From NCBI RefSeq assembly GCF_000014945.1, contig NC_008553.1:1054001-1118000 (forward strand): a stretch of DNA of 64,000 nt, given 5' to 3'. The DNA comes from Methanothrix thermoacetophila PT. GTDB taxonomy: Archaea > Halobacteriota > Methanosarcinia > Methanotrichales > Methanotrichaceae. Within the stretch, counting starts at the first letter, position 1; the number at the start of each line of letters is the position of its first letter. Shown here piece by piece: positions 12,732-16,596 of this stretch. The notes under the pieces were generated by a model that saw only the letters and a list, made by a program, of their open reading frames with translations, searched no databases and was not told the DNA's origin. Both the position numbers and the translations under genes were made by a program.

Positions 12732-13028
12732 CTGATTTCCTCCTACGCCAAATCTGTTTTACGAGCAGCCGTTATCGGCGAATTAGTTACCAGTCACTAA
12801 TACTTAAACATTCCTCCAAGCTGGATGTGATGCTTCCGAAGTGTATTCGAGAGTTCCACCGCGCTGGTTCTGATAGCATATTCTGTGATTCGACCACACG
12901 ACCCGATAACCATCATTAGGCTTTACAGCAGATAGATGCGAGATTAATATTACTAACATATAGATTGAATGCACAAAATAAACTATTTATATTATAACAA
13001 CAATACACAATGCTAAAAGAAGACCGTG
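12732..13028. promoter_or_regulatory. Divergent promoter region of hdrED and an HTH regulator
   Basis: About 300 AT-rich bases. For the plus-strand regulator a TATA-like ctatttatattat lies near 12983-12995, about 35-45 bases before its start. For hdrE, on the minus strand, tttaagtatt near 12800-12812 lies about 70 bases before the ATG. The shared spacer makes the HTH protein a natural candidate to control hdrED. Confidence 0.45.
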
Positions 13029-13451
13029 ATGTGCATGAGACAGTTCTCTGTAAGGGTTCTCGATGAGAGGGACGCCGAGTTTGTGGAGACTCTGGTCTCC
13101 GTGGGCATACCCAGAAACGTGGCTGCCATGATAACATACCTATCCAATGTGGAGGAGGCCACATCCAGGGAGATCGAGATTGGCTCAAACCTCAGACAGC
13201 CAGAGGTCTCAGTTGCGATGAGAACGCTCAGGGCGAACAACTGGGTGGAGGAGAGAGAGCTGAAGAAGGACGGCAAGGGCAGGCCCATGAAGGTGTACAG
13301 GTTGACTGTGAGCCTCGACGAGATCATAAAGCACTTTGAGGAGGAGAAGAAGAGAGAAGCTGCAAAGATAATGGAAAGCATACAGAGGCTGAGAGAACTG
13401 GGCAAGAAGCTCAGCCCGAGGGGATCTAGCCAGCAGATACAACCCGGATGA
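13029..13451 (+). CDS. Winged-helix transcriptional regulator
   Basis: About 140 residues. Residues 20-75 form a winged helix (IPRNVAAMITYLSNVEEAT, then SNLRQPEVSVAMRTLRANNWV), followed by a basic wing (KKDGKGRPMKVYRL) and a C-terminal coiled coil (HFEEEKKREAAKIMESIQRL) likely for dimerisation. It resembles archaeal TrmB/MarR-like predicted regulators. Starts at 13026, 13029 or 13035 are possible because no clear Shine-Dalgarno separates them. It is divergent from hdrED. The last 26 bases overlap the oppositely oriented ubiquitin-like gene. Confidence 0.85.
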   Translation: MCMRQFSVRVLDERDAEFVETLVSVGIPRNVAAMITYLSNVEEATSREIEIGSNLRQPEVSVAMRTLRANNWVEERELKKDGKGRPMKVYRLTVSLDEIIKHFEEEKKREAAKIMESIQRLRELGKKLSPRGSSQQIQPG

Positions 13452-13895: not shown

Positions 13896-14415
13896 AAATT
13901 CCTTCCAGAAAGATGGTGACGCGGCAGAGTCGCTGTTAATGAACGTTATGGGTGCACCAGGATCGTGCATAGAAATCGATCAATACGTTTCAAACAACAA
14001 GTCCTCTGAGATCACATGGTGACCAGGAAGCCAGACCAGTGCACCTGCTGGGGCTGAATGCTGAGCAGTTTACTGTGAAAGCACGACCTGAAGGAATCCA
14101 CCTCCGGTATATAGACACGTTTTTTGGAAGAAACCATCCCGAATGCTTTCGTCCTTTCGGCACGCATCTACTGTTGCACGCGGGTTTCCGGACGACTTAA
14201 TACCTTACCGGAGTCTGTCTTTTGAGATAGAATTCGTCTCGAAACTATTTAAGCAACGATGCGGATCTGCATCGATCCTGCGCGGAAATACAATCCACAT
14301 AAATCAATACGCCTGGGAATTTTGAGACGACTTCATACAATGCTTTGGATGCACGGTGCTTCAAAGAACATTTGCATGGAGAGCCTTTTTAAAATATGAG
14401 CTACATCTTTCCACC
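13896..14415. other. Long intergenic region without recognisable gene
   Basis: About 520 bases. A 60-codon frame at 14143-14325 lacks family features and a ribosome-binding site, and I do not accept it. No tRNA or ordered repeat is seen. Sequence just before 14416 is only moderately AT-rich, so the promoter of the next gene is unclear. Confidence 0.4.
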
Positions 14416-15267
14416 ATGGGAAGACGAGCAGAGCGTCCCATGCTGTGGATGCTTCTTGTGATAATCTCGGTTCAGGTCCTCTCGCTGGGTATGATGCCTG
14501 CGCTTTCGGCGAGTGAGGTTCGGGTCTTCGAGGATCCATCTGCGACGTCAAATGCCATACTCTACATTGTGCTGGTGCTGATATTCACTGGATTTCTTCT
14601 TTTAGCGACAAGGCTCGGCTGGGGCTGGCTCGTCTCAGGAACCGTCCAGCTCTGCCTATTCCTCAGCGTATTTTACGTTCTCGGTGTATACCTGCCTTGG
14701 GTGCTGGCTTTCTCGATCTCCCTTGCTCTCATGCTTGCGATGGTATACTACCCAGAGTGGTACGTTGTGGACCTGCTGGGGATTCTTGTGAGCGCGGGGG
14801 TCAGTGTTCTCTTTGGCCTCAGCATGGAGACCCTGCCTGTGGTCGTTCTCCTCGCCATTCTTGCTGTCTATGATGCGATATCTGTCTACAAAACAAAGCA
14901 CATGGTAACGTTGGCTGAGAGCGTGATAAATATCAGGGCGCCTCTGCTCTTCGTCATCCCGAAGAGCAGGAGCTACAGCTTCCGGGGCAGGGGAGCTGAT
15001 AGAAGAGAGGCGTACTTCCTGGGGCTGGGAGATGCGATAATGCCATCTGTGCTTGTTGTATCCGCGAACTGGTCGCTTCCCGCGGGTCATGAGATCTTCG
15101 GCGTTGCCCTGCCGGCGATCGGCGCGATGCTCGGGACGTACATGGGATTCATGTTTCTCGCAACGACATCGGGCGAGAAACCGCAGGCTGGATTGCCCTT
15201 CCTCAACGGCGGTGCTGTAATCGGATTTCTCGCAGGATGCATGCTATCAGGCGTGCGGCCATTTTGA
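14416..15267 (+). CDS. Presenilin/signal-peptide-peptidase-type intramembrane aspartyl protease
   Basis: A multi-pass membrane protein of about 283 residues (from 14416). A longer frame starts at 14356. Roughly nine hydrophobic segments are seen. The family hallmarks are present: the first catalytic Asp in LAVYDAISVYK (residue 153 from 14416), the second in FLGLGDAIMPS (residue 206), and a PAL-equivalent AGLPFLNGG near residues 259-267. This matches archaeal presenilin homologues (PSH). It probably cleaves transmembrane helices such as leftover signal peptides. Substrates are unknown. It stands alone, convergent with the ligase-like gene. Confidence 0.88.
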   Translation: MGRRAERPMLWMLLVIISVQVLSLGMMPALSASEVRVFEDPSATSNAILYIVLVLIFTGFLLLATRLGWGWLVSGTVQLCLFLSVFYVLGVYLPWVLAFSISLALMLAMVYYPEWYVVDLLGILVSAGVSVLFGLSMETLPVVVLLAILAVYDAISVYKTKHMVTLAESVINIRAPLLFVIPKSRSYSFRGRGADRREAYFLGLGDAIMPSVLVVSANWSLPAGHEIFGVALPAIGAMLGTYMGFMFLATTSGEKPQAGLPFLNGGAVIGFLAGCMLSGVRPF

Positions 15268-15370: not shown

Positions 15371-16528
15371 CTAGCGAGGTACAATCTGAAAGTCAACTCT
15401 GCTCCTCTTTCCCAAGAGATATGGAGCAGATTGCGCGCGCACCATTACTGGAAGACCGCTCTGAAGCAACTCTTCGTGTTCAAGGGGTTCCACGACGGAG
15501 ACGTTAATAGTCTCACCATTGATATTCTGCACGACATCTGATGCCAGTTGGAGCCTCTCCGAGTACTCCAGATCCACGATCTCTTTGCCATCGATACAGA
15601 CCGCATCCCAGATTATGATCGAGGGCCTGATCGATGATCTCCTGGCGCTCCTCCTCCGGTTTATCAGTCTGGTGATCTGGGAGAGATCTTCCCCTGTATG
15701 CATTTCTCCCTCAAGCATCGCAGATCTGCTCGCCTCTGTTTTAAGACCGCTGAGGACATGGCTGATATCCCTTCGTCTGTTGGTGAACAGCCAGGATCTC
15801 TCCTCTGATACGTGGAGCTGGACCCTGATGCCTCTTCTTGCATAGCAGATGATATCCGATTTGGCAATGGAACCGTGCGCAGACGTGATCCTCACATGTG
15901 GAATCTCCATCATGACGAACGGGATACCGGGTGTGAGCCTTATAGTGTCCAGAGAACCGGTAGATGCAGCCTCCGCCACATGCCCCATCTCCGGCAGCCT
16001 CGAGTATGCTGCCCATACCTTTTCGACATCCACCCCATAAGCTCTTGATATCGCTGCTGCAATCGTCCTCGGCCCGATCCCGGATCTGAGCCCCGCTGCT
16101 GTGAGAGCTATGTATCTCCCCTCGAGCGGCGGTGATGATAGCAGGAGGCCCGTGAGCATGGACCTGCGTCGACCCTCAGATCCCCGTCCCTTCGACTTCA
16201 TGATCTTGTTAAGCACGCTGTGGACGTAGCAGATGGTAAGAGACGGCTCGCCTATGCCTCTCTGGCGCTTGTGGCGGATCGCGTGCTCTGCCATCTCTCC
16301 CATATCCCCACCCTCAATCCGATCGGAGATCGAGAGGATCGCGTCCATCAGTATATCTCTTCCGGTGAGCTCCCCCGGACTCCAGCTCGGCCTTATTCCA
16401 CCTGTCAGGAGCCGCACCGCAGGGCAGATCTCCTCTTTAGAGATAGATCTCAGGAGAGATGCGAGGGCGCCGATCCTGTCCCGCTTCCTGCAGCTCAGAA
16501 GCTCTGCAATTCTCGTGTATTCTGTCAT
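15371..16528 (-). CDS. Degenerate ATP-dependent DNA-ligase-like protein without catalytic lysines
   Basis: The product has 385 residues. Residues 1-180 match the N-terminal DNA-binding domain of archaeal LigI. The adenylation domain can be followed by its motifs: motif I KYDGIRVQIH appears as ARRGIRVQLH (residues 230-239, Lys and Asp lost), motif III as MLEGE (271-275), motif IIIa as IIIWDAVCIDG (304-314), motif IV as LPVMVR (Lys to Arg), and motif V as VDFQIVPR (Lys lost) at the C-terminus. The OB-fold is absent. It cannot be a normal ligase. A DNA-binding or regulatory role is possible. The frame is intact, so it is not simple decay. Confidence 0.8.
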   Translation of the reverse strand: MTEYTRIAELLSCRKRDRIGALASLLRSISKEEICPAVRLLTGGIRPSWSPGELTGRDILMDAILSISDRIEGGDMGEMAEHAIRHKRQRGIGEPSLTICYVHSVLNKIMKSKGRGSEGRRRSMLTGLLLSSPPLEGRYIALTAAGLRSGIGPRTIAAAISRAYGVDVEKVWAAYSRLPEMGHVAEAASTGSLDTIRLTPGIPFVMMEIPHVRITSAHGSIAKSDIICYARRGIRVQLHVSEERSWLFTNRRRDISHVLSGLKTEASRSAMLEGEMHTGEDLSQITRLINRRRSARRSSIRPSIIIWDAVCIDGKEIVDLEYSERLQLASDVVQNINGETINVSVVEPLEHEELLQSGLPVMVRAQSAPYLLGKRSRVDFQIVPR

Positions 16529-16596
16529 GATCCTCCGCGGGTGACGGCGGTACCTGCATTTTCAGATCCGGCCATCACCCAAGTCCTGCCTTTACC

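Follow-up and report, generated by a model that had tools for sequence, protein, structure and literature searches.

A predicted DNA ligase pseudoenzyme retained across the methanogen family Methanotrichaceae

Catalytically dead members are familiar among kinases, proteases and decarboxylases. In DNA ligases, the OB-fold domain enables both the encircling of DNA and step 1 of the reaction. The closest described relatives of the gene analysed here are the archaeal or LIG1-type ATP-dependent DNA ligases (PF04675, PF01068 and PF04679; 3gde from A. fulgidus and 2cfm from P. furiosus), with which it has in common the DNA-binding domain, the nucleotidyltransferase fold and the motif order. The likeness extends to residues retained across the paralogues described below, namely the motif I Gly, Arg and Gln, the motif IIIa Asp, and a Tyr and a Gly between motifs IV and V, whereas the motif I Lys and Asp, the motif IV Glu and Lys, the motif V lysines, motif VI and the OB-fold are missing from the present protein, which falls in a separate clade.

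A second precedent is provided by dead DNA ligase IV. With the single yeast Dnl4 substitutions K282R, D284A or K466A, which alter the motif I Lys, the motif I Asp and a motif V Lys, adenylation is lost or severely impaired, and the mutant proteins nonetheless accumulate at breaks (PMC3694833). Together with dead Lig4 (PMC9638927, PMC11754673), they illustrate how a ligase scaffold can fulfil a structural role at DNA in which no sealing takes place, and by analogy such a role is proposed here. Those proteins are engineered mutants of an active enzyme of Ku-dependent NHEJ, whereas the paralogue is natural, ancient and encoded by a genome without detectable Ku. The AdoMetDC prozyme (PMC5201418) and deoxyhypusine synthase (PMC3663545) are likewise retained duplicates that have lost catalysis; their folds are unrelated to that of ligase and they regulate an active partner, whereas the partner of the present paralogue is only putative. 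No description of an inactive archaeal ligase paralogue, or of a DNA ligase that an entire family retains in inactive form, was found in the open-access texts searched.

The gene lies on the minus strand at positions 15371–16528 of the window (the whole 64,000-nucleotide stretch of Methanothrix thermoacetophila PT DNA that was analysed) and encodes 385 amino acids followed by a stop. The open reading frame starts with ATG and contains no internal stop, confirming the predicted 385 open codons, and a ribosome-binding-site-like GGAGG is located immediately 5′ of the start codon (16532–16536, minus strand). Pfam matches above the cut-off were obtained for DNA_ligase_A_N (PF04675, E 7.7e-17) and DNA_ligase_A_M (PF01068, E 1.2e-6), and both domains were present in all 36 paralogues compared; the C-terminal OB domain gave no Pfam match in the window protein. 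Residues 1–190 (15959–16528, minus strand) form the N-terminal helical DNA-binding domain, with helices spanning residues 3–190 of the AF2 model, and residues 196–385 (15374–15943, minus strand) form a degenerate nucleotidyltransferase core. The model was obtained with a pLDDT of 87 and a pTM of 0.88, and its closest structures by Foldseek were archaeal DNA ligases (3gde, TM 0.85), followed by DNA-bound human LIG1. The two Pfam domains and the TM of 0.85 to 3gde make the protein a member of the ligase superfamily in both ancestry and fold, and the ligase-like fold segments and DNA-binding domain recognized in the original prediction are indeed retained. The host genome, a single contig of 1,879,471 bases, contains one other ATP-dependent ligase (L041), which is full length and intact with a standard KFDG motif. 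Because this true ligase is intact, the paralogue is free of sealing duty.

Alignment of the paralogue motif I (CYARRGIRVQLH) with that of the host true ligase (EWKFDGARVQIH) placed Ala230 at the Lys site and Arg232 at the Asp site. The motif I remnant, ARRGIRVQLH (residues 230–239; 15812–15841, minus strand), has thus lost both the Lys and the Asp while keeping Gly233, Arg235, Gln237 and His239. The motif IV remnant VMVR (residues 361–364; 15437–15448, minus strand), part of a PVMVR segment, has lost the Glu and carries Arg in place of the catalytic Lys. The C-terminal tail, KRSRVDFQIVPR (residues 374–385; 15374–15409, minus strand), corresponds to the former motif V and is devoid of both motif V lysines and of the OB-fold. 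The motif IIIa Asp308 (15605–15607, minus strand) is kept in 35 of 36 paralogues.

Similar losses were observed throughout the family. Among 36 intact orthologues, the KxDG Asp, the motif IV Glu and both motif V lysines were missing from every copy, and the motif IV Lys was kept in one and replaced by Arg in 33. The motif I Lys was lost in 27, the site being occupied by Arg (19), Lys (9), Ala (6), Val (1) or Leu (1). All motif I, IV and V residues were present in the 29 catalytic ligases compared. The original prediction of ARRG instead of KxDG, of a motif IV ending in VMVR and of a motif V without Lys therefore agrees with the alignments; its statement that every catalytic lysine had been replaced holds for the window gene but not as a family rule, nine relatives having the motif I Lys. 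The ARRG sequence is fixed within the genus Methanothrix (Ala in 6 of 6) but not beyond it, and a new conserved active-site motif was rejected since the position differs between genera. A single-genome oddity or sequencing error was likewise rejected, the same ARRG being found in five congeneric copies.

The paralogue lacks, in its sequence, the defining catalytic features of a functional DNA ligase (motifs I, IV and V, and the OB-fold with motif VI), and it is rated a pseudoenzyme of the ligase family. We infer its biochemical inactivity from these residues and from the analogous Dnl4 mutants. Since the equivalent single changes cripple adenylation in Dnl4, the nine copies with a motif I Lys are most likely inactive as well; weak residual nucleotidyl transfer by these nine is just conceivable. 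Some nucleotidyl chemistry might in principle be kept via other residues, for instance in the handling of RNA or adenylated DNA, as the conserved motif I Gly, Arg and Gln, the IIIa Asp and the nine lysines would allow. Such chemistry is very improbable given the universal absence of the KxDG Asp, the motif IV Glu and both motif V lysines, the Ala at the Lys site in Methanothrix, and the lack of motif VI and the OB-fold in most copies.

The distribution of the paralogue was determined by profile search. An orthologue was detected in 49 of the 50 Methanotrichaceae genomes among 200 genomes of the class, the one without it being only 56% complete, so that the absence of orthologues, which would have told against retention, was not observed. 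Family paralogues scored 395–605 bits, compared with at most 284 bits outside the family in the same 200 genomes and at most 303 bits among non-family matches in 295 genomes of the phylum; no paralogue orthologue was found outside Methanotrichaceae in either set. The non-family matches had the ORF lengths of ordinary ligases, and KxDG was present in the 15 class- and phylum-level ligases fetched from among them. An earlier search of the host genome and 36 family relatives returned a match in every genome, with ligase and paralogue both present in all but one (G021, one match). Separately, a second ligase-like gene interrupted by a single in-frame TAG occurs in each of two genomes from this class (G052:C44:93705-94742 and G060:C1:1333967-1334734, the latter with KYDG), possibly reflecting pyrrolysine read-through or decay.

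In the phylogenetic tree, the 36 paralogues formed one clade (SH-aLRT 100) on a long stem branch, apart from every catalytic ligase. Distances between paralogues were correlated with those between the corresponding true ligases (Mantel r 0.94 for 21 genomes and 0.81 for 13 after thinning of genera; p 0.0002), and mean distances between genera were 0.63 and 0.35, respectively, i.e. about twice the divergence for the paralogue. As paralogue divergence tracks that of the true ligase, inheritance has been vertical. The paralogue stems from a single copy, duplicated from an ATP-dependent (LIG1-like) ligase, that the Methanotrichaceae ancestor already carried.

Loss of the OB-fold, as claimed in the original prediction, was evident in the window protein and in 29 of the 36 copies; it does not extend to the other seven, in which the domain is kept and motif VI is degenerate. 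A 546-residue relative (G019) still shows OB-fold strands and matches full-length ligases. Presence of the domain on the paralogue tree requires seven changes if regain is allowed and, by our reading of the tree, about 12 losses if it is barred. Whatever selection preserves in the paralogue can thus do without the clamp-closing domain. Decay is visibly under way in the C-terminal part of two relatives (L034 and L028) with the rest of the gene intact: in G021 the remnant continues out of frame, and in G023 most of the OB-fold is deleted.

Selection on the paralogue was assessed within the genus by pairwise counting estimates rather than codon-model fits, which gave an omega of 0.275 (bootstrap 0.22–0.35, i.e. 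0.224–0.350), well below 1 and indicative of purifying selection, compared with 0.07–0.10, or around 0.09, for the true ligase. By the same estimates the DNA-binding domain (0.18; 0.13–0.25) is the better conserved half of the protein, the core yielding 0.41 (0.32–0.53). In the DNA-binding domain, paralogues and ligases had 21 conserved columns in common, and a further 15 were conserved among paralogues alone; in the core, 12 columns were conserved in both groups and 45 ligase-invariant columns were lost. The high divergence of the paralogue and the decaying OB-fold remnants of the two relatives might raise the suspicion of a pseudogene in decay, or of an artefact of annotation or assembly. 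Either is scarcely credible, and decay was rejected, since the gene is universal in the family, has an omega well below 1, has survived relocation and has open frames in all copies but one, at a chimeric contig end; orthologues full of stops were thus not encountered. The exceptional copy (G029, L038) continues into unrelated sequence from about residue 320, close to the end of a contig; it has the look of a chimera, not of a frameshift, and is a probable misassembly. Catalytic death and selection are both well supported, and the window gene appears, on sequence evidence, to be a retained dead paralogue with intact, conserved orthologues under selection beside an active copy. The predicted purifying selection on a non-ligase role is in turn supported by the 49 orthologues in 50 genomes and the omega of 0.275; end-binding and regulation of the true ligase, offered there as examples, would be candidate roles.

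The properties of the DNA-binding domain bear on what this role may be. The GxG loop (Gly150 and Gly152) and other residues of the domain are common to paralogue and ligases, while the ligase-invariant Arg165, Glu170 and Arg174 (true-ligase numbering) are lost in paralogues. The paralogue domain is more basic, with a mean net charge of +0.5 (+7 in the window protein) versus −5.4 in ligases. The modelled fold and the basic charge are compatible with a DNA-binding accessory, and our preferred explanation, with a probability of roughly 0.55, is that a DNA ligase pseudoenzyme has been kept as a non-sealing DNA-binding accessory. Self-adenylation and sealing chemistry would have been lost early, as the residues indicate, while conservation and the confident model show that the DNA-binding domain was kept together with a folded nucleotidyltransferase core. 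The helical domain would bind nicks, flaps or ends without sealing them, and the paralogue would serve replication or repair as an occupancy, recruitment or regulatory factor beside the true ligase; this exact role is our inference. Repeated loss of the OB-fold, with the other two domains intact, suggests that the role for which the protein is kept does not depend on a closed clamp.

The region that harbours the PCNA-binding (PIP) motif in ligases was compared across the class (L041-L063 vs L001-L037). Gln89 of the window protein (16262–16264, minus strand) occupies this site; the Gln is invariant among paralogues as part of QxxL, with Leu/Ile present and without the aromatic pair of the Qxxhxxaa pattern. 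The true ligases of Methanotrichaceae have lost the Gln (PLTLAAF) and kept the hydrophobic or aromatic end, and elsewhere in the class the ligases of other families have both Gln and aromatics, those of one family having canonical QxTFSxF-type motifs. The clamp-binding motif thus shows complementary decay between true ligases and dead paralogues. This pattern could mean that the paralogue cooperates or competes with the true ligase on PCNA, modulating sealing as an inactive subunit or as a decoy; in other enzymes, catalytically dead paralogues are known to activate the partner enzyme (PMC3663545, PMC5201418). A PIP box nevertheless needs the aromatic pair that paralogues lack, which leaves this explanation improbable. 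A bolder version is a long shot: a natural ligase pseudoenzyme, indispensable or nearly so to a single methanogen family, that would mark or hold nicks and ends and gate the true ligase's access to the clamp, the two paralogues having split the ancestral clamp-binding motif.

The gene neighbourhood suggests a different association. Outside Methanothrix, the paralogue lies directly 3′ of a winged-helix gene of about 100 codons' product length in 43 of 43 family genomes, usually with a gap of 0–20 nt and with ftsZ upstream of the pair. The winged-helix gene occurs class-wide, yet none of the other families inspected has it beside a ligase. The paralogue might therefore work with this regulator in a transcriptional or chromosome-bound complex, in which the ligase fold would serve as a sequence-independent DNA-binding module linked to ftsZ rather than to repair. 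This is doubtful: co-transcription may mean shared timing only, and the paralogue persists in six Methanothrix genomes in which it has moved away from the ftsZ–winged-helix pair. In Methanothrix the cluster is broken into three places, each part of which persists in the genus: ftsZ and the winged-helix gene at ~967 kb, the paralogue at 1069 kb, and a radical-SAM gene with a surface-protein gene at 1390 kb. In many relatives this radical-SAM gene, of the Rv2578c/PA0069 kind, is located downstream of the paralogue. Its product is distantly spore photoproduct lyase-like (L105:9762-10616; G000:C1:1390075-1390908). It had no match in two g9 genomes (G018 and G013) and a weak match in G009, and an obligate partnership was rejected on these grounds.

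An operon logic within the window was also rejected, the neighbours (a metalloenzyme-superfamily gene, Fae-Hps and a presenilin-like protease) being common to the genus only. The last of these, a presenilin-family intramembrane protease (PSH) gene at 14356–15267 (plus strand), is convergent with the dead ligase. The MreA-family regulator located near ftsZ elsewhere in the genome (G000, ~965.7 kb) has a related second copy at 13026–13451 (plus strand). A role as an NHEJ ligase of the LigD or Lig4 type was rejected in turn: no Ku gene was matched in the host genome, and a Ku-type NHEJ role is accordingly unlikely.

The annotations of "ATP-dependent DNA ligase" in Methanotrichaceae genomes would count one non-ligase. 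If the paralogue binds nicks without sealing them, it would be a natural separation of ligase scaffolding from ligase chemistry, so far studied with engineered Lig4 mutants.
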